The position numbers and the translations under genes were made by a program. A stretch of DNA of 17,004 nucleotides from Bordetella parapertussis. Its GTDB lineage: Bacteria > Pseudomonadota > Gammaproteobacteria > Burkholderiales > SG8-39. Every line of letters begins with the position of its first letter. Position 1 is the stretch's first letter. Under the pieces are notes generated by a model that had not been told where the DNA came from, searched no databases, and was given only the letters and a program-made list of their open reading frames with translations. The DNA lies in contig CAMDRY010000026.1 of assembly GCA_945906975.1 (NCBI GenBank), positions 1 to 17,004 of the forward strand, read 5' to 3'. Shown one piece after another: positions 7,333 to 16,875 of the stretch.

Positions 7333-8268
7333 ATGACTTTGACAGAACTGCGCTACATCGTCGCCGTTGCGCGCGAGCGCCATTTCGGTCGTGCCGCCAA
7401 AGCCTGCTTCGTCAGCCAGCCGACCCTTTCGGTGGCAATCAAAAAGCTCGAGGAAGAACTGGGCGTGACGCTGTTCGAGCGCGCCAGCAACGAGGTGACG
7501 CCGACCGCGGTGGGCGCGCAGGTCGTGGAACAGGCCCAACGCGTGATCGAGCAGGCCGGCGCAATCAAGGACATCGCCAAAGCGGGCAAGGATCCGCTGT
7601 CGGGGCCCCTGCGCATCGGCATGATTTACACCATCGCCCCCTACCTGTTGCCCGGCGTGGTGCGCCTGCTGCACAAGCGCGCGCCCAATATGCCGCTGCA
7701 TTTGCAGGAAAACTACACCCACCGCCTGCGTGAGCTACTGAAGCAAGGCGACATCGACGCGGCGGTGCTGGCACTGCCTTTCGAAGAAGCGGGCTTTGCC
7801 ATCCAGACCGTCTACGACGAGCCCTTCGTTGCAGCGGTGCCGCGGGCGCATGAATGGGCGGGGCGAAAATCGGTGAAGAGCGCCGAACTCAAGACACAAA
7901 GCATGGTGCTGCTCGGAGCCGGCCATTGTTTTCGCGACCAGGTGCTGCTCGCCTCACCGGAACTCAACCGTTTTGACTCGAACACCGGCATGCAAAAGAC
8001 CTTCGAGAGCTCGTCGCTTGAAACCATCTGCCAGATGGTCGCCTCCGGCGTCGGCCTGACCGTGCTGCCATCCTCATCGGTTCCGCAACACGTTTCGCGC
8101 GAAAGCCTGTTGCGCTTCGTGCCATTTTCCAAACCGGTGCCCGACCGGCGCGTGGTACTGGTCTATCGCAAATCGTTTCCGCGCCCCGCGGCAATCGAGG
8201 CCCTGCGCCAGGCCATTCTCGACTGCCCCCTTCAAGGCGTGCGCAAGCTGGATCTTCCGGCCGTCTGA
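7333..8268 (+). CDS. oxyR: OxyR-type LysR regulator with Cys199 but Ser208
   Basis: 311 residues. OxyR senses hydrogen peroxide in the cytoplasm and activates peroxide-defence genes. A winged helix-turn-helix fills about 1-60 (FGRAAKACFVSQPTLS, KKLEEELG), followed by a LysR effector domain closely like Neisseria and Burkholderia OxyR (GPLRIGMIYTIAPYLLP, SSLETICQMVASG, RKSFPRPAAIEALRQAI). The peroxide-reactive Cys199 is present in GHCFRDQ with the surrounding residues intact. Codon 208 (TCA, 7954-7956) encodes Ser, where E. coli OxyR has the disulfide partner Cys208, so the classical 199-208 disulfide cannot form. Other cysteines are at 25, 233 and near the C terminus (LDCPLQG); Cys233 in SLETIC is one possible substitute. 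GGAG lies 7 bases before the start. It follows uvrA and stands in front of a rubrerythrin operon carrying an OxyR-like operator. The family assignment is firm; the response to peroxide is uncertain. Confidence 0.9.
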   Translation: MTLTELRYIVAVARERHFGRAAKACFVSQPTLSVAIKKLEEELGVTLFERASNEVTPTAVGAQVVEQAQRVIEQAGAIKDIAKAGKDPLSGPLRIGMIYTIAPYLLPGVVRLLHKRAPNMPLHLQENYTHRLRELLKQGDIDAAVLALPFEEAGFAIQTVYDEPFVAAVPRAHEWAGRKSVKSAELKTQSMVLLGAGHCFRDQVLLASPELNRFDSNTGMQKTFESSSLETICQMVASGVGLTVLPSSSVPQHVSRESLLRFVPFSKPVPDRRVVLVYRKSFPRPAAIEALRQAILDCPLQGVRKLDLPAV

Positions 8269-8301
8269 ATCATTCCATTGCTGCGATCGACCCCGGTCTG
8301 C

Positions 8302-8337
8302 GGCCGGGCTTTCGGCCACAAGGGGGGGGCTTCCCCT
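8302..8337 (+). terminator. Possible terminator after oxyR, with a run of eight G
   Basis: Two short GC stems: GGCCG (8302-8306) with CGGCC (8313-8317), and AGGGG (8321-8325) with CCCCT (8333-8337). The sequence then switches abruptly to AT-rich DNA (TACATTTATAATTT). There is no clean U-tract, so this is a weak intrinsic terminator at best. The eight consecutive G at 8322-8329 are a potential slippage site. Confidence 0.35.
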
Positions 8338-8348
8338 ACATTTATAAT

Positions 8349-8385
8349 TTAGCTTTTAACTATCGTTAAAATATTATTAATCAAT
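8349..8385 (+). promoter_or_regulatory. Predicted OxyR operator upstream of rubrerythrin
   Basis: The OxyR consensus has four tetramers, ATAG, CTAT, ATAG, CTAT, each separated by 7 bases, plus a conserved T and A inside each half. Here the tetramers are TTAG (8349-8352), CTAT (8360-8363), ATAT (8371-8374) and CAAT (8382-8385), all with exact 7-base spacing. The first half also keeps the internal T and A, and the second keeps the A. I count 16 matches at 20 defined positions. The site ends one base before a candidate -35 box, the usual position for OxyR activation. The surrounding DNA is AT-rich, which raises the chance of a random match. Confidence 0.55.
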
Positions 8386-8414
8386 TGGATTAATTAACTA
8401 CCCACTCCTACTAT
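8386..8414 (+). promoter_or_regulatory. Candidate rubrerythrin operon promoter
   Basis: TTGGAT (8386-8391) and TACTAT (8409-8414) are separated by exactly 17 bases, about 50 bases before the rubrerythrin start. The -35 box is poor (3 of 6 matches), as expected for a promoter needing an activator, and it abuts the predicted OxyR operator. A perfect TATAAT at 8343-8348 is a rival -10, but no -35 box lies at the proper distance before it. Confidence 0.4.
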
Positions 8415-8463
8415 TCGCTCCATGCAGCGTGTGCTGCTGACGAAAACAACACTGGAGATGACA

Positions 8464-8946
8464 ATGAGCAAACCCGAATCGATCACCATCAAGAACCTCG
8501 AAGCCGCCTTCGCCGGCGAATCAATGGCCCATATCAAATACCGCTACTTCGCCAAACTTGCCCGCGCCGCCGGCGATGAGGAAACGGCGCGCACTTTTGA
8601 GGAAACCGCCGACCAGGAAGTCCAGCACGCCTTTAGCCACCTCGACCTGCTTTACCCGAAAGACCAGCTCACCCCGGCCAAATCGCTGGAAATCGCCATC
8701 GCCGGTGAAACCTACGAGTACACCGAGATGTACCCGCAGTTCCGCCATCTCGCCGAACAAGAAGGCAACAGCGCGGCGGCAAAGGAAATGGGCGAGCAGA
8801 TCACCGAGTCGAAGCAACACGCGGCGCGCTTTGCCGCCACCCTCGCCAAGGCAGCCAAGCGCTTCGCCGCCCTCGCCACCGTGGAAGAGCGTCACGCCAA
8901 TCACTACCGCGCGCAGCTCGCGCGCACGCAAGCCAAGGCAAGCTGA
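8464..8946 (+). CDS. rbr: Rubrerythrin, diiron domain only (no rubredoxin domain)
   Basis: 160 residues. Rubrerythrins reduce hydrogen peroxide to water at a diiron site in the cytoplasm, taking electrons from rubredoxin. The ferritin-like four-helix fold shows the expected ligands: Glu19 (FAGES), Glu52 and His55 (ETADQEVQHA), Glu82 and Glu85 (AGETYEYTEMYP), Glu141 and His144 (VEERH). Classical rubrerythrin continues into a C-terminal rubredoxin domain with two CxxC pairs; this protein has no cysteine at all and ends after the diiron domain. The missing module is encoded as a separate gene 51 bases downstream. There is also extra sequence of about 20 residues between the third helix region and the last ExxH (ESKQHAARFAATLAKAAKRF). 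The start at 8464 is chosen because GGAG lies 6 bases before it; upstream in-frame ATGs at 8422 and 8458 do not fit. It is first in an operon with rubredoxin and its reductase. Confidence 0.9.
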   Translation: MSKPESITIKNLEAAFAGESMAHIKYRYFAKLARAAGDEETARTFEETADQEVQHAFSHLDLLYPKDQLTPAKSLEIAIAGETYEYTEMYPQFRHLAEQEGNSAAAKEMGEQITESKQHAARFAATLAKAAKRFAALATVEERHANHYRAQLARTQAKAS

Positions 8947-8957
8947 ACCCCAACCAA

Positions 8958-8985
8958 CACCATTCACCATTCACCATTCACCATT
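8958..8985 (+). repeat. Four perfect tandem copies of a heptamer in the rubredoxin leader
   Basis: CACCATT is repeated four times without error (8958-8964, 8965-8971, 8972-8978, 8979-8985), between the rubrerythrin stop and the GGAG (8988-8991) of rubredoxin. Copy-number change by slippage would alter the length of the untranslated spacer but no reading frame. Confidence 0.85.
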
Positions 8986-8997
8986 TTGGAGATCAGC

Positions 8998-9165
8998 ATG
9001 AAAACATGGCAATGCATCGTATGCGGTTTCATCTACGACGAAGAAGCGGGACTTCCCGAGGAGGGCATCAAGGCGGGCACGCGCTGGGAAGACATTCCGG
9101 CCGACTGGGCCTGCCCCGAATGCGGCGTGGGCAAGGCCGACTTCGAAATGGTCGAGCTGGCTTAG
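8998..9165 (+). CDS. rubA: Rubredoxin
   Basis: 55 residues. A small cytoplasmic one-electron carrier with a single iron held by four cysteines. It begins [18 protein letters not shown] and ends [17 protein letters not shown]. The ligands are Cys6 and Cys9 (CIVCG) and Cys39 and Cys42 (CPECG), with the usual aromatic and acidic residues between them ([15 protein letters not shown]). Length is typical of stand-alone rubredoxins. GGAG at 8988-8991 sits 6 bases before the ATG. It lies between a rubrerythrin that lacks its own rubredoxin domain and a rubredoxin reductase (9-base gap), so its job is most likely to carry electrons from the reductase to the rubrerythrin diiron site. Alkane hydroxylase supply, the other common rubredoxin role, has no support here. 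Confidence 0.95.
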
Positions 9166-9174
9166 GCCGGGGTC

Positions 9175-10323
9175 ATGACAGCCCCCATCGTCATCGCCGG
9201 CAGCGGGCTTGGGGGCTATACCCTCGCCCGCGAACTGCGCAAGCTCGACAAGACTATCCCGGTCGTCATGCTCAGCGCCGATGACGGTGGTTTTTACTCA
9301 AAGCCGATGTTGTCCAACGCCTTTGCAGCGGGCAAAAGCGCGGAGCAACTGCTCAACACCAGCGCCGCCGCAATGGCGGCGCAACTGGGCATCGAGGTGC
9401 AAGCCCACACCCGTATCAGCGCCATCGACGTGGCCGCCAAACTGGTAAAAAGCAACCGGGGACCGCTACACTACGCAAGCCTCATCCTTGCCCTTGGCGC
9501 CGATCCGATACGCCTGCCGCTAAGGGGGGATGCCGCCGGCGCGGTCTTGTCGGTCAACGACCTTGGCGACTACGCCCGTTTTCGCGCCGCCATCAAAGGC
9601 AAAAACCGCGTCGCCATTCTTGGCGCCGGCCTCATCGGCTGCGAGTTTGCCAATGACCTTGCGATCGGCGGGCATGCGGTTGACGTGATCGACCTGGCGC
9701 CGCTGCCACTCGGGCGCCTGCTGCCCGAGGCGCCCGCGCTGGCATTGCGCGAAGCGCTTTCCGCCGCCGGGGTGCGCTGGCACATGGGTCGGCGAACCGC
9801 CGCCATCGAACACGATGGCGGCGCCTTGCGCGTGGTGTTCGAAGATGGCAGCGCCATCGGCACCGACACGGTGCTGTCGGCCGTTGGACTGGTGCCGCGC
9901 ACCGCGCTGGCCCGCGCCGCCGGACTCGGCGTCAAGCGCGGCATCGTCGTCGACCATCACCTGCGCTCGAGCGCGCCGGACATCTACGCCCTTGGCGACT
10001 GCGCCGAGGTGGCGGGGCTGGTGCTGCCTTACGTCATGCCCATCATGCATGCCGCGCGCGCACTGGCCGCAACGCTGGCAGGCAAGGAACAGGCCGTGCG
10101 CTATCCGGCCATGCCGGTGATGGTCAAGACACCGGCGCTCGCCACGGTGGTCTGCCCGCCCCCGCTGGGCGCCAGCGGCAACTGGGCAAGCACAGCCTCG
10201 GACGGCGGCATGCAATCGCTTTTTCGGGACAAGGCCGGTCGCTTGCTGGGCTTTGCCCTGAGCGGAAACGCGCAATCGGACAAAGCGCGACTGGCAAAAG
10301 AACTCGAGCCGCTGCTGGGCTGA
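9175..10323 (+). CDS. rubB: FAD-dependent rubredoxin-NAD(P)+ reductase
   Basis: 382 residues, the normal size for this family (about 380-395). It oxidises NAD(P)H and passes electrons through FAD to rubredoxin. Features: an N-terminal FAD-binding GxGxxG (GSGLGG, 9-14), a central NAD(P)-binding GxGxxG (GAGLIG, 150-155), and the second FAD contact IYALGDCAE (270-278, Asp275). The segment GFYSKPMLSNAFAAGKS is typical of rubredoxin and ferredoxin reductases, and the C-terminal region carries LPYVMPIMHAARALA. There is no redox-active CxxC, which separates it from thioredoxin and glutathione reductases. It is the third gene of the rubrerythrin operon, 9 bases after rubredoxin. The ribosome-binding site is only GGGG close to the ATG, so translation may depend on the gene upstream. 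Confidence 0.88.
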   Translation: MTAPIVIAGSGLGGYTLARELRKLDKTIPVVMLSADDGGFYSKPMLSNAFAAGKSAEQLLNTSAAAMAAQLGIEVQAHTRISAIDVAAKLVKSNRGPLHYASLILALGADPIRLPLRGDAAGAVLSVNDLGDYARFRAAIKGKNRVAILGAGLIGCEFANDLAIGGHAVDVIDLAPLPLGRLLPEAPALALREALSAAGVRWHMGRRTAAIEHDGGALRVVFEDGSAIGTDTVLSAVGLVPRTALARAAGLGVKRGIVVDHHLRSSAPDIYALGDCAEVAGLVLPYVMPIMHAARALAATLAGKEQAVRYPAMPVMVKTPALATVVCPPPLGASGNWASTASDGGMQSLFRDKAGRLLGFALSGNAQSDKARLAKELEPLLG

Positions 10324-10600: not shown

Positions 10601-11587
10601 ATGGCAAAAAAAATATTCGCTGCGGCCCTGGGATGCCTGACCATGTTGCTTTCTCTCGGCGCGGCAGCGCAGGCGCCTGGCGCCGGCGCTTGGCCAGCCA
10701 AGCCGGTGCGCATCATCGTCGGTTTTGCCCCCGGCGGAAACACCGACACCGTGGCGCGCGTGCTCGCCATACGCATGCAGGAGTTACTGGGTCAACCCGT
10801 TCTGGTTGAGAACCGCACCGGCGCGGGCGGGGTGGTCGCCACGGAGTTCGTGGCCAAGGCTGCGCCAGACGGGTACACCCTGTTGATGTCCTCCCTCGGT
10901 CCCCACACGGTATCGCCAAGCCTGCTCAAGTCGGTCGGGTTTGATCCGGTGAACGACCTCGCACCGGTCAGCAACGTGGCCTCCAATGCCCTGGTCCTGA
11001 TGGTGAGTCCCACGCTGCCAGTCAGATCGGTTAGTGAACTGATCGCTTACGCCAGGGCCAACCCGGGAAAATTGAATTTCGGCTCCTCCGGCGTCGGCTC
11101 GACCACCCACCTTTCGGGCGAAGTGTTCAGCGGCATGACCGGCAGCAAAATGGTTCATGTTGCATACCGCGGGGGAAACCTCGCCATGGTCGGACTGCTT
11201 GCCGGCGACATCCAGCTGATGTTCGCCAACCTGTCCGACGCACTGCCGCAGATCAAAGCGGAAAAAGTCCGCCCCCTCGGCGTGACCAGCCCCAGGCGGG
11301 TGCCGCAGTTACCGGAGCTGCCAACGATTGCGGAGTCAGGATTGCCCGGCTTTGACGTGAGTCCGTGGAACGGCTTGGTGGCGCCGGGGCAAACGCCACC
11401 CGAGGTGCTCGCCAAACTCTCGGAACTGACGCAACGCATCGTGCGCGAAGCTTCCTTTCGCGAAAGAATGTTTGAAATCGGCTCCGACCCGGTGGGCGAC
11501 ACGTCCGAGAAGTTCCGCACAACCATCCGCAATGACATTCAGCGCTGGGCCAGGATAATCAAGGAAGCCGGCATCAAAGCCGAATAG
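10601..11587 (+). CDS. Bug-type tripartite tricarboxylate transporter receptor (TctC family), receptor 1
   Basis: 328 residues. A periplasmic substrate-binding protein; family members capture carboxylates or related small anions for a TctAB membrane pair. The signal peptide is clear: MAKK, a hydrophobic stretch to about residue 22, and probable cleavage after AQA (residue 25). Family hallmarks follow: WPAKPVRIIVGFAPGGNTD, VENRTGAGGVVATEFVAK, PDGYTLLM, FGSSGVGSTTHLSGE, HVAYRGG, PTIAESGLPGFD and a C-terminal helix IQRWARIIKEAGIKAE. AAGGA lies 7 bases before the ATG. No tctA or tctB is in the window, so it is an orphan receptor, common in Burkholderiales. It sits 66 bases before a UbiD decarboxylase with no terminator visible between, suggesting that its ligand is a carboxylate decarboxylated by that enzyme or a precursor. 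The ligand cannot be read from the sequence. Confidence 0.93.
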   Translation: MAKKIFAAALGCLTMLLSLGAAAQAPGAGAWPAKPVRIIVGFAPGGNTDTVARVLAIRMQELLGQPVLVENRTGAGGVVATEFVAKAAPDGYTLLMSSLGPHTVSPSLLKSVGFDPVNDLAPVSNVASNALVLMVSPTLPVRSVSELIAYARANPGKLNFGSSGVGSTTHLSGEVFSGMTGSKMVHVAYRGGNLAMVGLLAGDIQLMFANLSDALPQIKAEKVRPLGVTSPRRVPQLPELPTIAESGLPGFDVSPWNGLVAPGQTPPEVLAKLSELTQRIVREASFRERMFEIGSDPVGDTSEKFRTTIRNDIQRWARIIKEAGIKAE

Positions 11588-11653
11588 CAAAGCGCGCGCA
11601 AAGGCACGCCGGTTCACCGAAAAAAACACAAATAACCTACAGGAGCGGGATTT

Positions 11654-13042
11654 ATGAACAATCCACAAAGCTTGCGCGGATTCATTGACATGGTCGAGCG
11701 CGATTACCCCGATGAATTGCTGCGCATCCGCGAGCCGGTGCGCACCCACCTTGACATCACCTCGTTGATATTCGAACTGGAGCGCGCCGGCAGGAGCCCG
11801 GTTGTCATCTACGAGAACGTCGAGGGACACACCATGCCGGTGGTAACCAACATCGCCGGCAATCGCAAGCTGCTTGCCGCCTGCCTGAACGTGCCGCAGG
11901 CCGAACTGCCCAGCGCCTTTCGTGAGCGCTGCCAGAAGTACATTCCCTGCGAGCTCGATGATTCGCCCCCCTGGCAGGAGCTGGTTTTCGAGGGCGATCA
12001 GGTCGACCTCACCAAGCTGCCGATCCCGACCCATTTTCATGTCGATGCCGCGCCCTACATCACCGCCGGCCAGCTGTCGGCGCGCGACCCACTGACAGGG
12101 GTGGACACCACCGGCTTTCACCGGCTCATGCTCGCCGGAAAAAACCGCCTCGGCGTGTCGCTGCACTCGCGCCGCCGCATGTTTGAATTTCACCGCCGCG
12201 CGGAGCAGCGCGGGGAATCGCTCCCGGTGGCGATCACACTGGGCATACACCCGCTGCATTACATGGGCTCGATGGTTTTCGCCTATCCGCCAAACGTGCG
12301 CAAGTATGAAATTATCGGCGGACTGTTCGGCGCACCGTACCGACTGGCCAAGACAGGCGTGCAGGGCGTGCAGGTCCCCTCGGGGGCGGAGATCGTAATC
12401 GAAGGTGAAATCCTCGCCGGCGTGCACGAGCCGGAGGGTCCATTTGGCGAATTCACCGGTTACGCATCGTTCCGCAGCACGCAGAACGTGTTCGTCGCCC
12501 ACCGCGTGCGCATGCGCCGCGACGCCATGTTCCATTCCATCGCATCGGGTATGGCGCAGGACCATATCCTGGTGTCGTGCATTACGCGCGAGGGTGAAAT
12601 ACTCAACACCCTGCGCCGCAACCTGCCCAATGTCATCGCCGTGCACGTTCCCCACCGCACGTGCGGCGCCTTTCTTGCCATCGTCAAGATGAAAAAATCA
12701 TCCCAGGGCGAGCCGCAGCAGGCGATCATGGCCGCGCTGGGCACCGAGTTCTACACCAAGTACGTGATCGTCGTCGACGAAGACGTGGATATCTTCGACA
12801 TGAACGACGTCATGTGGGCGGTCGCCACGCGGGTGCGTGCCGAGCGTGACATCGTCTTCATCCCGCATGCCAAGGGCGCCATCCTTGACCCCAGCTCGGA
12901 TCCTGAGGCGTTTACTGTGACCAAGATGGGCATTGACGCGACCAAACCGCTGGGCCGCGATTTCGCCGAGCGCCTGACCATTACGGAAGAGCAAAGCGCG
13001 CGCGTGCGCAAAATACTCCAGGCCTCGGGGATCACCATCTAG
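11654..13042 (+). CDS. UbiD-family prenylated-FMN decarboxylase
   Basis: 462 residues. UbiD enzymes reversibly decarboxylate aromatic, heteroaromatic or unsaturated acids in the cytoplasm using prenylated FMN made by a UbiX enzyme. The catalytic motif EPEGPFGEFTGY spans 259-270; with Arg157 (GFHR) this gives the Arg-Glu-Glu set expected of the family (Arg157, Glu261, Glu266). Other family blocks are GVSLHSRRRMFEFH (His171), LPVAITLGIHP, YEIIGGLFG (Glu219), VPSGAEIVIEG and a C-terminal TKMGIDATKP. At the position of the cofactor and metal-binding Asn (Asn in NVGIYR of E. coli UbiD) my alignment by eye puts Thr152. AGGAG lies 8 bases before the start. It is second in a unit with receptor 1 and is followed by a clear terminator. 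No ubiX is present here. It is not ubiquinone-pathway UbiD by context; the substrate is probably a ring carboxylate taken up by the neighbouring receptors. Confidence 0.88.
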   Translation: MNNPQSLRGFIDMVERDYPDELLRIREPVRTHLDITSLIFELERAGRSPVVIYENVEGHTMPVVTNIAGNRKLLAACLNVPQAELPSAFRERCQKYIPCELDDSPPWQELVFEGDQVDLTKLPIPTHFHVDAAPYITAGQLSARDPLTGVDTTGFHRLMLAGKNRLGVSLHSRRRMFEFHRRAEQRGESLPVAITLGIHPLHYMGSMVFAYPPNVRKYEIIGGLFGAPYRLAKTGVQGVQVPSGAEIVIEGEILAGVHEPEGPFGEFTGYASFRSTQNVFVAHRVRMRRDAMFHSIASGMAQDHILVSCITREGEILNTLRRNLPNVIAVHVPHRTCGAFLAIVKMKKSSQGEPQQAIMAALGTEFYTKYVIVVDEDVDIFDMNDVMWAVATRVRAERDIVFIPHAKGAILDPSSDPEAFTVTKMGIDATKPLGRDFAERLTITEEQSARVRKILQASGITI

Positions 13043-13078
13043 GTACTCCGGGCGCCTGCCGGGGGACAATCGCTTTAG

Positions 13079-13113
13079 CGGGTGTATTTCGCATGACGGA
13101 ATACACCCGTTTT
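13079..13113 (+). terminator. Intrinsic terminator after the UbiD decarboxylase
   Basis: CGGGTGTATT (13079-13088) pairs perfectly with AATACACCCG (13100-13109). Three more inner pairs are possible (one a G-U wobble), leaving a CATGA loop, and TTTT follows directly. It lies 36 bases after the stop codon and separates the receptor 1-UbiD unit from the receptor 2-Mo hydroxylase unit. Confidence 0.8.
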
Positions 13114-13176
13114 AACGACTGGAGTTGACCGGCTTCATTGAAGGCACAGCGCCAAGGTGGTACAACTGCGCGTTCT

Positions 13177-13216
13177 GGGCATGCCCGACGTTGCAGAAGT
13201 TGCAAAGTTTGCAAAA
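13177..13216 (+). promoter_or_regulatory. Palindrome and three 9-base-phased repeats upstream of receptor 2
   Basis: A perfect palindrome GGGCATGCCC (13177-13186) is followed by three imperfect tandem 9-mers: GTTGCAGAA (13190-13198), GTTGCAAAG (13199-13207) and TTTGCAAAA (13208-13216). All share TTGCA at 9-base steps. They lie 35-75 bases before the receptor 2 start and are probable protein-binding sites. No convincing -35/-10 pair was found in the 208-base gap. Confidence 0.4.
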
Positions 13217-13250
13217 ATCAGAATGCCCGTTTCCTCGAGGAATAAACACC

Positions 13251-14213
13251 ATGAAACGCTTCCTAGTTGCCGTCCTCGCCGCCGCCTTGTGCGCCGGCAT
13301 CAGCGCCCAAGCCCAGACCTACCCGGCCAAGGCGGTCCGCATCATCGTTCCGTTCGCCGCCGGCGGCCCGGCCGACATTTACGCGCGCTTTATCGGTCAG
13401 CGCCTGTCCGAGGCGCTCGCCCATCCCTTTGTCATTGAAAACCGTCCGGGCGCGGGCTCGGTCATCGGCACCGATGCGGTCGCCAAATCGCAGGCCGACG
13501 GCTACACCCTGCTGATGATGTCCAACACCCACACCGTCAACGAATCACTGATCCCGAACAAACCCTTCGACCTGATGCGTGACTTCGCGCCGGTGGCACC
13601 GATCAATTACTCCGACCTGGTACTGGTGGTCCACCCCTCGGTAAAGGCGAACAACCTGAAAGAGCTCATCGCCCTCGCCAAAGCCAACCCCAAAGGCATG
13701 AACTACGCGTCCTCGGGGCCGGGTACGCCCTATCACATGGCCGGCGAACTATTCAAGGCCATGGCTGAAATCGACGTCGTGCACGTACCCTACAAGGGCA
13801 GCTCGGGCGCGCGCACCGACATCCTGGGCGGCCAGGTGCAGATGATGTTCGACGCCATCACCACCATGGCGCCCAATGTGCGCGCCGGCAAGCTCAAGGC
13901 CTTCGGCACCACCGGCAAAGTGCGCTCGTCGGTGCTGCCCGATGTGCCGACCATCGCCGAAGCGGGCGTGGCCGGCTATGAAGCCACCATCTGGCTGGGC
14001 ATCATGGCCCCGACAGGCACGCCCAAAGCCGTGATCGACAAGCTCAATGCCGAAATCGCCAAAATCGTGAACCGTGCCGACGTCAAAAAATCCTGGCAGG
14101 AACAGGGCGCCGAACCGATGAGCATGACGCCCGAGCAATTCGGCCAGTACATGCGCGAGGACATCACCAAGTGGGCGCGTATTGTCAAGATCTCCGGTGC
14201 GAAAGTGGACTGA
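13251..14213 (+). CDS. Bug-type tripartite tricarboxylate transporter receptor (TctC family), receptor 2
   Basis: 320 residues. A periplasmic binding protein of the same family as receptor 1 but clearly diverged from it, so this is not a recent duplication. The signal peptide is MKRFLVAVLAAALCAGISAQA, with cleavage after residue 21. Family blocks: YPAKAVRIIVPFAAGGPAD, ENRPGAGSVIGTDAVAK, ADGYTLLMMS, NYASSGPGTPYHMAGE, HVPYKGSSGARTD, PTIAEAGVAGYEA and the terminal ITKWARIVKISGAKVD. The start at 13251 is preferred over the upstream ATG at 13125 because it places the signal peptide at the N terminus and has GAGGA at 13237-13241, 9 bases before it. Its TGA overlaps the ATG of the [2Fe-2S] subunit by one base, so receptor and hydroxylase are translated together. 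That link suggests the ligand is the hydroxylase substrate or its parent compound. Confidence 0.93.
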   Translation: MKRFLVAVLAAALCAGISAQAQTYPAKAVRIIVPFAAGGPADIYARFIGQRLSEALAHPFVIENRPGAGSVIGTDAVAKSQADGYTLLMMSNTHTVNESLIPNKPFDLMRDFAPVAPINYSDLVLVVHPSVKANNLKELIALAKANPKGMNYASSGPGTPYHMAGELFKAMAEIDVVHVPYKGSSGARTDILGGQVQMMFDAITTMAPNVRAGKLKAFGTTGKVRSSVLPDVPTIAEAGVAGYEATIWLGIMAPTGTPKAVIDKLNAEIAKIVNRADVKKSWQEQGAEPMSMTPEQFGQYMREDITKWARIVKISGAKVD

Positions 14214-14698
14214 TGACCAAGCGCGCCTTCAAGCTCTCCATCAACGGCGTGCCGCACGAGGTGCAGGCCGAGGAAGACACACCGCTCATTTACGTGCTGC
14301 GCAATGACCTCGAACTCAAGGGTACGCGCTTTGGCTGCGGCGTCAACCAGTGCGGCGCCTGCCATGTGCTGATCGACGGCCACTCGGTGCCCGCATGCGA
14401 CACCCCGGTCTGGGCGGCTGAGGGCAAAAAAATCGTGACGGTGGAGGGCCTGTCGGCCGAAGGCTGGCTGCACCCATTGCAGCAGGCCTTCATCGAGGAG
14501 CAGGCGGCGCAGTGCGGCTATTGCATCTCGGGCATCCTGGTCACCGCCGCCGCGTTCCTGGAAAACAATCCGCGCCCCAGCGACGCCCAGGTGCGCGAGG
14601 CGCTCGACAAGCACCTTTGCCGCTGCGGCAGCCACAACCGTATCGTGCGCGCCGTGCTGCGCGCGGCAGACATGATAAAAGACAAGGCCACGGCATGA
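14213..14698 (+). CDS. [2Fe-2S] subunit of a molybdenum hydroxylase (IorA/CoxS type)
   Basis: 161 residues. It carries electrons from the molybdenum site of the partner subunit to an external acceptor through two [2Fe-2S] clusters. The N-terminal plant-ferredoxin-type cluster uses Cys42, Cys47, Cys50 and Cys62 (GCGVNQCGAC). The C-terminal four-helix cluster uses Cys101, Cys104, Cys136 and Cys138 (CGYCISG and CRCG). All eight ligands are present and the length is normal (150-170). The start is taken at 14213, inside the TGATG overlap with receptor 2, where the protein begins MTKRAFKLSINGVPHEV as homologs do. Its stop overlaps the next start as ATGA. The closest known pattern is the two-subunit isoquinoline 1-oxidoreductase or nicotinate dehydrogenase, which has no FAD subunit; none is seen here either. 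Confidence 0.95.
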   Translation: MTKRAFKLSINGVPHEVQAEEDTPLIYVLRNDLELKGTRFGCGVNQCGACHVLIDGHSVPACDTPVWAAEGKKIVTVEGLSAEGWLHPLQQAFIEEQAAQCGYCISGILVTAAAFLENNPRPSDAQVREALDKHLCRCGSHNRIVRAVLRAADMIKDKATA

Positions 14699-16875
14699 AC
14701 CTCGCATTCAAACTGGCGCAAATAGACCCAAGCCTGCCCAGACTGCCGGGCAGCCTGCAGGTCAACCGCCAGCTCGGCCAGTGGCTCAAATTCCACGCCG
14801 ACGGCAATGTGTCGGTCTATTCGGGCAAGGTCGAAATCGGCCAGGGCATCATCACCGCGCTGGCGCAAATCGTCGCCGAGGAGCTCGACCTCACCCTTGC
14901 ACGGGTGCGCATGGTGCCCGCCTGCACCGCCACCAGCCCCGACGAGCAGGTGACCTCGGGCAGCATGTCGGTGCAGGAATCGGGCACCGCGCTGCGCCAC
15001 GCTTGCGCCGAGGCGCGCGCCATTTACCTCGAGGCCGCGGCAACACGGCTCGAAGTGCCGCTCGCCGACCTCGAAGTCACCGACGGCACCATACGCGTGC
15101 GCGGCACCGACCGGCTGACCAGCTACTGGGCCCTCGCCGATGACGATCTGCTCGATCGCGAGGCCACCGGCAAGGTTGAACCCAAATTGGCCGGCTCCCA
15201 CCATATCGTCGGCAGCGCCGTGCCGCGCTTCGACATTCCCGACAAGGTCACCGGCAAACCGCGCTTTGTGCACGATATGACACTGCCGGGCATGCTTTAC
15301 GGCCGCGTCGCCCGCCCACCCTCACCGGGTGCAGAACTCCTTGATGTCGACTTCGCCGCAGTGCGGGCGATAGCCGGAGTGGTCACCACCGTGCGCGACG
15401 GCCGCTTTCTGGGCGTCATCGCCGAGCGCGAGGAGGTCGCCGTCAAGGCGCTGAAAACGCTCATCGCCGCCGCCACCTGGCGCGAGACGGCGACACTACC
15501 CGACATGCACGACCTGCCGGCCTTCCTGAAGGCACAACCCGCAGACACCACCCTCGTCGGTGAAAAAAAGCCGGAAGGCGCGGCAACACCGGCGGCAAAA
15601 AGCTTTAGCGCCGCCTACGACCGCCCCTTTCTCGCCCATGCCTCCATCGGGCCCTCCTGCGCCATTGCCAAATGGAATGCCCAGACTATCGAAGTCTGGA
15701 CGCACAGCCAGGGCATTTATAACCTGCGCACCGACCTGGCCATGGCGCTGGCGCTACCTGCAGAGAGCATCATCGTGCAGCACGTCGAAGGCTCGGGTTG
15801 CTACGGACACAACCCCGCCGACGATGCCGCCTACGACGCGGTGCTGCTGGCGCGCGCCCTCCCTGCGCATTTGAGTGGACGGCCGGTGCAAATGCAGTGG
15901 ACACGCGAAGACGAACTCGCTTGGGCGCCCTTTGGCGCGGCCATGACGGTCGAACTCAAGGCCGATGTCGCTGCCGATGGCCGCATCAGCGCCTGGCAGC
16001 ACGAGATCTGGTCCAACGGCCACGGCACCCGCCCCGGTCGCGCCAACACGCCGGCGATGCTCGCCGCCTCGCATCTTGAAAAGCCCTTCGAGCGCCTGAT
16101 CGCCATCAACGCCGCGCTCGCCGCCGGCGGCGGCTCCGAGCGCAACGCCATCCCGCTTTACAACTTCGACAGCTGGCAGGCGGTCAACCACCGCGTGCTC
16201 AGCATGCCCATACGCACCTCGGCGCTGCGCTCGCTGGGCGGCCATTGCAATGTCTTTGCCATCGAATCCTTCCTCGACGAGATCGCCCTGGAACTGGGCG
16301 TTGATCCACTCGAATACCGCCTGCGCCACCTCGAAGACCCGCGCGGCCGCGCCGTGCTGGAGGCGGCGGCAAAAATGGCCGGCTGGGCCAAGCGTAACGA
16401 AAACAAAAAAGTCGAAGGCCGTGGCATGGGCATGGGCTTCAACAAATACAAGAACAGCAGCGCCTACTGCGCGGTGTTCGCCGAAATCGACGCCGGGCGC
16501 GAGGTGCGCGTCAACAAGCTGTGGATCGCCGTCGACGTGGGCCTGGTCATCAACCCCGACGGGGTGCGTAACCAGATCGAGGGCGGCGCCATCCAGACGG
16601 TGAGCTGGGTGCTCAAGGAAGCGGTGAAGTTCGACCGCACGCGCATCGAGAGCAACACCTGGGAGAGCTATCCCATCCTGCGTTTTTCCGAAATGCCCAA
16701 GATTGAAATCGAACTCATCAACCGCACCGGCGAAAAATCCGTCGGCGCGGGTGAAGCCACCCACGGCCCGGTCGCTGCGGCCATAGGCAACGCCGTGTTC
16801 GACGCGCTGGGTGTGCGCGTGCGCAGCATGCCGCTTACGGCCGAGGCGATTACGAAGGCGGCGCTGGCGGACTGA
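14695..16875 (+). CDS. Molybdopterin-binding catalytic subunit of an IorB-type hydroxylase
   Basis: 726 residues. Catalytic subunit of a xanthine oxidase-family enzyme; relatives hydroxylate N-heteroaromatic rings or oxidise aldehydes using water as oxygen donor. Visible motifs: GQG at 49-51 followed by AQIVAEELD; GSGCYGHN (366-373), the cofactor loop that reads GGGFG in many relatives; TSALRSLGGHCNVFAIESFLDEIA; WIAVDVGLVINPDGVRNQIEGG; and GAGEATHGPVAAAIGNAV with the catalytic Glu687. The true start is the ATG at 14695, overlapping the [2Fe-2S] stop by four bases (ATGA); a longer in-frame extension to 14512 only re-reads that gene. No twin-arginine signal is seen, so the enzyme is probably cytoplasmic. 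There is no C-terminal cytochrome domain such as NicB has. The substrate is unknown; context with Bug receptors and UbiD points to a heteroaromatic or aromatic carboxylate. Confidence 0.9.
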   Translation: MNLAFKLAQIDPSLPRLPGSLQVNRQLGQWLKFHADGNVSVYSGKVEIGQGIITALAQIVAEELDLTLARVRMVPACTATSPDEQVTSGSMSVQESGTALRHACAEARAIYLEAAATRLEVPLADLEVTDGTIRVRGTDRLTSYWALADDDLLDREATGKVEPKLAGSHHIVGSAVPRFDIPDKVTGKPRFVHDMTLPGMLYGRVARPPSPGAELLDVDFAAVRAIAGVVTTVRDGRFLGVIAEREEVAVKALKTLIAAATWRETATLPDMHDLPAFLKAQPADTTLVGEKKPEGAATPAAKSFSAAYDRPFLAHASIGPSCAIAKWNAQTIEVWTHSQGIYNLRTDLAMALALPAESIIVQHVEGSGCYGHNPADDAAYDAVLLARALPAHLSGRPVQMQWTREDELAWAPFGAAMTVELKADVAADGRISAWQHEIWSNGHGTRPGRANTPAMLAASHLEKPFERLIAINAALAAGGGSERNAIPLYNFDSWQAVNHRVLSMPIRTSALRSLGGHCNVFAIESFLDEIALELGVDPLEYRLRHLEDPRGRAVLEAAAKMAGWAKRNENKKVEGRGMGMGFNKYKNSSAYCAVFAEIDAGREVRVNKLWIAVDVGLVINPDGVRNQIEGGAIQTVSWVLKEAVKFDRTRIESNTWESYPILRFSEMPKIEIELINRTGEKSVGAGEATHGPVAAAIGNAVFDALGVRVRSMPLTAEAITKAALAD

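Follow-up and report, generated by a model that had tools for sequence, protein, structure and literature searches.

The window (the whole 17,004-nucleotide stretch that we analysed) carries on its forward strand an oxyR gene (positions 7333–8268) for a LysR-type peroxide-sensing regulator of 311 residues, part of whose translation reads GHCFRDQVLLAS. The assignment is based on the domains PF00126 and PF03466 and on homology to the solved OxyR 4x6g (E 7.8e-98), which extends over query residues 1–301 and is thus full-length. The best-scoring family model was NCBIfam OxyR NF008361 (E 1.4e-78; 264.3 bits, cut-off 329); all four Cys208-bearing betaproteobacterial OxyRs tried also scored below this cut-off (229.9–283.4; E. 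coli OxyR, 632.9), so that it does not discriminate here.

Downstream on the same strand lie genes for rubrerythrin (8464–8946; PF02915, E 9.9e-20; an in-frame ATG is also present at 8422), rubredoxin (8998–9165; PF00301, E 1.8e-22) and a rubredoxin reductase-like flavoprotein (9175–10323; PF07992; rubredoxin-binding domain PF18113, E 1.5e-24; NorW model NF003437, E 2.6e-91, below its cut-off). Between oxyR and the rubrerythrin gene, we identified a candidate OxyR-type operator (8349–8385, forward strand) that matches 16 of the 20 positions of the E. coli OxyR consensus, a score equalled by none of 500 shuffles. A probable promoter, recognized by eye, abuts the operator on this strand (−35 TTGGAT at 8385–8390 and −10 TACTAT at 8409–8414, 18 bases apart); no promoter was called at 8385–8414 by an automatic scan, whose limits were stricter. 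Positions 7333–10323 (oxyR, operator, rubrerythrin, rubredoxin and reductase in a row) thus comprise a peroxide-reducing module next to what is likely its regulator. A run of eight G (8322–8329), possibly a slippage site, lies upstream of the operator, and a short ACCATTC tandem repeat (8959–8985) separates the rubrerythrin and rubredoxin genes. Farther downstream (10601–16875) are a UbiD-family decarboxylase (TIGR00148, above cut-off), xanthine-dehydrogenase-like small and large subunits (the large one from open reading frame reading only) and two mutually similar proteins that are presumably receptor-like.

The cysteines of the window OxyR are residues 25, 199, 233 and 298. In an alignment with E. 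coli K-12 OxyR (NC_000913.3), Cys199 (codon TGT, 7927–7929)—the peroxide-reactive cysteine, present in 476 of 477 aligned rows—falls opposite Cys199, and Ser208 (codon TCA, 7954–7956) falls opposite the usual resolving cysteine, Cys208, with no gap in between. Translation and alignment thus agree with a first-pass annotation of this DNA, which had described a natural OxyR that retains Cys199 and has lost Cys208. That annotation also took the residue numbering to be identical to that of E. coli; this holds as far as residue 208, but the loop beyond it is five residues longer in the window protein, which places the lineage-specific Cys233 (codon TGC, 8029–8031) opposite E. coli Arg228. Cys25 (7405–7407) belongs to the DNA-binding domain and is shared with E. 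coli OxyR, and Cys298 (8224–8226) is close to the C terminus. Neisseria OxyR has a cysteine at 208, as the annotation had stated (our alignment and PMC2881104). The window OxyR resembles the two-cysteine OxyRs of E. coli and Neisseria in fold family, length, Cys199 pocket, operator type and peroxide-scavenging targets, and differs from them in having Ser in place of the resolving Cys208.

Distribution and history of OxyRs lacking Cys208

Of 8000 protein matches, the 120 that were listed were examined together with the query: residue 199 was Cys in all 121 proteins, and residue 208 was Cys in 66, Ser in 27, Ala in 17, Asn in 10 and Val in one; within the matches listed, all of P0002–P0005 (99% identity to the window OxyR) and P0006–P0017 (80–91%) have Ser208. 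Of 80 loci retained from species genomes, 79 encode Cys208 and one encodes Asn at this position. The family of this Asn208 genome, which includes the MAG Betaproteobacteria bacterium SG8_39 (judged from agreeing contig coordinates of L011 and G083), encodes OxyR in 42 of 98 genomes (one each, E 1e-90 or better), and 11 of the 42 proteins lack Cys208. A sample of the order yielded 107 OxyRs in 106 of 150 genomes (E 1e-80): 102 have both cysteines, four are without Cys208 and one is without Cys199. We then searched further from one of these four proteins (120 listed of 8000 matches) and combined the results into a 477-row alignment.

Of the 477 rows, 81 (77 distinct sequences) carry Ser, Ala, Asn, Val or Phe at position 208, and every one of these 81 retains Cys199; in the thinned set, Cys208 is missing from 39 of 122 rows. 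The 81 rows are not a random sample, because the protein-search queries (two group A proteins and one group B protein, as defined below) themselves lack Cys208. They fall into three groups: group A, to which the window OxyR belongs (66 rows; Ser in 34, Ala in 19, Asn in 11 and Val in two), group B (10 rows; Ser in nine and Asn in one) and group C (five rows, P0157, P0172, P0186, P0193 and P0197, one of them named Sulfuricella; Phe in all). The idea of Ser208 as a clade trait, raised in the first-pass annotation, is borne out by alignment with relatives, in that near relatives share Ser208 and whole groups of relatives lack Cys208. The accompanying statement that relatives carry Cys208 is correct farther out, where this is the norm (the 102 proteins of the order sample), but not for the nearest relatives. 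A sequencing error at 7954–7956, also considered in the annotation, is contradicted by the recurrence of the Cys208-less state in other contigs and genomes; codon 208 reads TCG, AGC, GCG, GCA, GTG or AAT in 11 other genomes.

A tree uniting all Cys208-less rows was rejected (p-AU 1.3e-8; 92 of the 122 thinned rows, simpler model), so that Cys208 was lost at least twice, with regain of Cys set aside. Two losses are firm and more are possible: four trees required 4, 3, 6 and 5 changes by parsimony (6 on the 122-row thinned set, in which group B forms a clade with a support of 100). Further losses inside group A are possible, given that one test argues for them (in a set of 79 rows, grouping the 43 Cys208-less ones as a single clade was rejected, p 0.003) and another does not (a single clade for 33 window-group rows was not rejected, p 0.24; the same 92 of 122 rows and simpler model). 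With those rows and that model, groups B and C as one clade were not rejected either (p 0.33).

Other arrangements of regulatory cysteines were also seen. One OxyR from the same order (L291, G185:C1) has Ser199 and Cys208, the mirror image of the window OxyR, and three other LysR regulators (L149, L150 and L151) from genomes with a Cys208-less OxyR have no Cys199 and carry a Cys at a 208-like place. The cysteine of Deinococcus OxyR may be of the same kind. In Deinococcus radiodurans, OxyR (DR0615) is reported to have one conserved cysteine that is needed for sensing and was observed as sulfenic acid (PMC2225504); this residue, C210, is described as the equivalent of Cys208 and not of Cys199 (PMC2881104), so that by published description it is again the mirror image of the window OxyR, which keeps Cys199. 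Mycobacterial OxyS is described as a LysR-type, peroxide-responsive katG regulator with a single regulatory cysteine (PMC3260234) and is similar to this extent; unlike in the window OxyR, the residue concerned is Cys25 of the DNA-binding domain.

Pocket conservation, operators and scavenger genes

The pocket around Cys199 is conserved in the rows that lack Cys208 (of 81, Thr100 in 81, Thr129 in 80, Cys199 in 81, Arg201 in 81 and Arg272, corresponding to E. coli Arg266, in 81). Cys199 and the pocket residues Thr100, Thr129, His198 and Arg266 (E. coli numbers) are present in the window OxyR and in all 66 group A rows. At residue 198, 66 of the 81 rows have His and 15 have Asn; Asn is also found here in 119 of 396 Cys208-bearing rows and in Neisseria. 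Comparison of the window oxyR with six Cys208-less relatives gave a dN/dS of 0.10–0.19 at a dS of 0.62–1.39 (Nei–Gojobori); on these substitution rates, oxyR is under purifying selection. With E. coli OxyR as the query, a single strong match stood out in each of the 11 Cys208-less genomes (E 8.3e-75 to 1.7e-69). The next-best match overall had an E of 3.6e-40, and the GHC motif was missing from the top three of these remaining matches. No second, canonical OxyR was seen in these 11 genomes, whose completeness is unstated. A glutathione synthetase domain was found in 10 of the 11.

Four relatives with an oxyR–rubrerythrin pair have the same operator (14 to 16 of 20 positions; 0 or 1 of 500 shuffles as good), which is absent at L135, where a reductase gene follows oxyR (9 of 20; 164 of 500 shuffles as good). 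An operator model trained on the five rubrerythrin (rbr) sites, those of the window and the four relatives, was compared with 200 shuffles and beat all of them upstream of katG in six of the seven Cys208-less genomes with katG (G034 being the exception) and upstream of ahpC in all three with ahpC; the ahpC site of G034 had previously been located with a pattern built from the same rbr sites. In G034, the model gave no site before katG, before the rubrerythrin-like gene or before the reductase gene that follows oxyR, and it likewise gave none before the genes that follow oxyR in G001 and G004. Before katG, the E. coli consensus gave nothing above chance in three of three cases, and sites emerged with the rbr-trained model. 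Two pattern searches of the 11 whole genomes returned four sites, all before rbr, and five sites, the fifth before ahpC. Raw model scores in two group B genomes in which rubrerythrin follows oxyR were 24.5 and 12.1. Cys208-bearing genomes also scored (all shuffles beaten before katG in four of nine and before rubrerythrin in six of ten scanned), indicating that this operator type is common to ordinary OxyRs. Judged by likeness, putative OxyR-type operators thus precede rubrerythrin, katG and ahpC genes of Cys208-less genomes.

In group A, the gene after oxyR encodes rubrerythrin in the window and four Cys208-less genomes, KatG in three and a reductase in one, and none of these in G001, G004 and G035; in the two group B genomes it encodes rubrerythrin. 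In 140 rows, the downstream sequence extends for 700 bases or more; rubrerythrin adjoins oxyR in 18 of them (7 of 14 Cys208-less versus 11 of 126 Cys208-bearing rows, which amount to only two independent pairs). Scavenger content did not clearly separate Cys208-less from Cys208-bearing genomes of the family, either for katG (PF00141; 7 of 11 versus 11 of 31) or for rubrerythrin (E 1e-20; 5 of 11, including a weak match at E 2.5e-21, versus 7 of 31). At the same threshold, ahpC was present in 3 of the 11 Cys208-less genomes.

Proposed peroxide sensing without a resolving cysteine

We found no conserved substitute for Cys208 in the alignment: Cys199 is the sole cysteine present in all 81 Cys208-less rows. 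Cys25 occurs in 78 of these rows, Cys298 in 69 and Cys233 in five (371, 306 and two of the 396 Cys208-bearing rows, respectively). The first-pass annotation had proposed Cys233 as an alternative partner; with five of 81 rows, it is ruled out as a general one, being confined to the window OxyR and four proteins approximately 99% identical to it (5 of 66 group A rows; 0 of 15 in groups B and C), although it may act as a partner in the window's own strain. Cysteine sets can be smaller still, with only Cys25 and Cys199 in 7 of the 66 group A rows and all five group C rows, and only Cys199 and Cys298 in three group A rows. The annotation had also considered a partner shifted to near 208, which we looked for in the alignments and did not find. 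Six loci that seemed to have a shifted partner (L115, L116, L117, L122, L123 and L126) reflected an alignment effect; all six have Cys208 in a fuller alignment, and the raw sequences of five have a Cys nine residues past Cys199.

We lean slightly towards the view that the window OxyR still works, with Cys199 as its only H2O2-sensing cysteine, in the form of a sulfenic acid or mixed disulfide. In favour of this view are the retained Cys199 pocket, the lack of any other cysteine common to all Cys208-less proteins, purifying selection, the putative operators before scavenger genes, the single strong OxyR match per genome and the widespread glutathione synthetase domain. Given the conserved pocket, Cys199 is probably still reactive with peroxide, and with neither Cys208 nor a universal substitute, it could stay a sulfenic acid for some time, pair with glutathione or a different thiol in a mixed disulfide, or bond across subunits. 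H2O2 would oxidize Cys199 to sulfenic acid, which would last long enough, or be capped by glutathione or another thiol, for the altered residue to shift tetramer packing; the shifted tetramer would switch on the rubrerythrin–rubredoxin–reductase genes and other scavengers, and a thiol reductant would reset Cys199. The Cys199–Cys208 disulfide of the textbook model would go unused. In Neisseria OxyR, Cys208 is reported to be buried, and both cysteines were modelled close to the dimer–dimer interface (PMC2881104); by analogy, such a position may fit the small residues at 208 in groups A and B.

Engineered and evolved Cys208 mutants (Ala, Ser, Tyr and Gly) share with the window OxyR the altered residue and the retained Cys199, but the window state is natural and occurs in many genomes. 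In the published descriptions, Ala and Ser mutants are non-activating, which counts against sensing through Cys199 alone: engineered Neisseria C208A represses and does not activate catalase (PMC2881104, which cites another study), and E. coli C208S is without polysulfide regulation (PMC6831875). These phenotypes would suit a protein locked in the reduced form, which would repress or regulate weakly and would have lost activation. We consider this quite unlikely: the operator of the window directly adjoins the by-eye −35-like TTGGAT on its upstream side, a site suited to activation, and an unused Cys199 would be free to drift; the suggestion in the annotation that the protein might be locked in one state can be upheld only as a poorer fit with the conserved Cys199 pocket. 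The operators would also suit a pure repressor or an always-on protein, and sites are missing at some genes of G034, G001 and G004, both of which also weigh against the Cys199-only sensor.

Tyr and Gly mutants, in contrast, are reported from evolved strains with constitutive OxyR activity (PMC7038661), and Phe208 of group C is chemically near Tyr208, a further point against Cys199-only sensing. The replacement of Cys208 could thus destabilize the reduced tetramer and leave the regulon always on, irrespective of peroxide. This seems unlikely, as groups A and B have Ser, Ala, Asn or Val and no Gly or aromatic residue (none of the group A residues is among the reported constitutive replacements), and Cys199 and its pocket are kept, although drift would be expected if they were unused. 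We assign a similarly low probability to the formation of another disulfide by oxidized Cys199—with Cys25 or Cys298, either in its own or in an adjacent subunit, with Cys233 in the window's strain, or between the Cys199 residues of two subunits. The prevalence of Cys25 and Cys298 in Cys208-less rows would allow for such a bond, and the regulatory cysteine of mycobacterial OxyS offers a parallel for Cys25, but neither residue is universal, both are common without loss of Cys208, Cys298 is absent from 7 of 66 rows in group A and from all five in group C, and Cys233 is rare. We found nothing in favour of an error in sequencing or assembly, or of gene decay; these can practically be dismissed, since other contigs and genomes share the Cys208-less state and dN/dS is low.

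Engineered mutants have long been the basis of the argument over whether OxyR depends on the Cys199–Cys208 disulfide or can respond to a range of Cys199 states, and a 2021 review presents the disulfide as the OxyR switch (PMC8115020). In the openly licensed literature, as far as its texts were available, we found no paper on natural OxyRs with Cys199 and without Cys208, and no expression or biochemical data on such a protein. As the first-pass annotation had recognized, a protein with Ser208 bears on this dispute: natural loss of Cys208 with Cys199 kept is a natural test of the disulfide requirement, and its occurrence in at least two lineages with Cys208-bearing kin provides matched natural pairs for direct comparison. 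We tentatively propose, with a little less than even confidence, that betaproteobacteria evolved, at least twice, OxyRs that would activate the peroxide regulon through sulfenic acid formation or S-thiolation of Cys199 alone, in which case the Cys199–Cys208 disulfide would be an evolvable addition to OxyR switching, not its essence.
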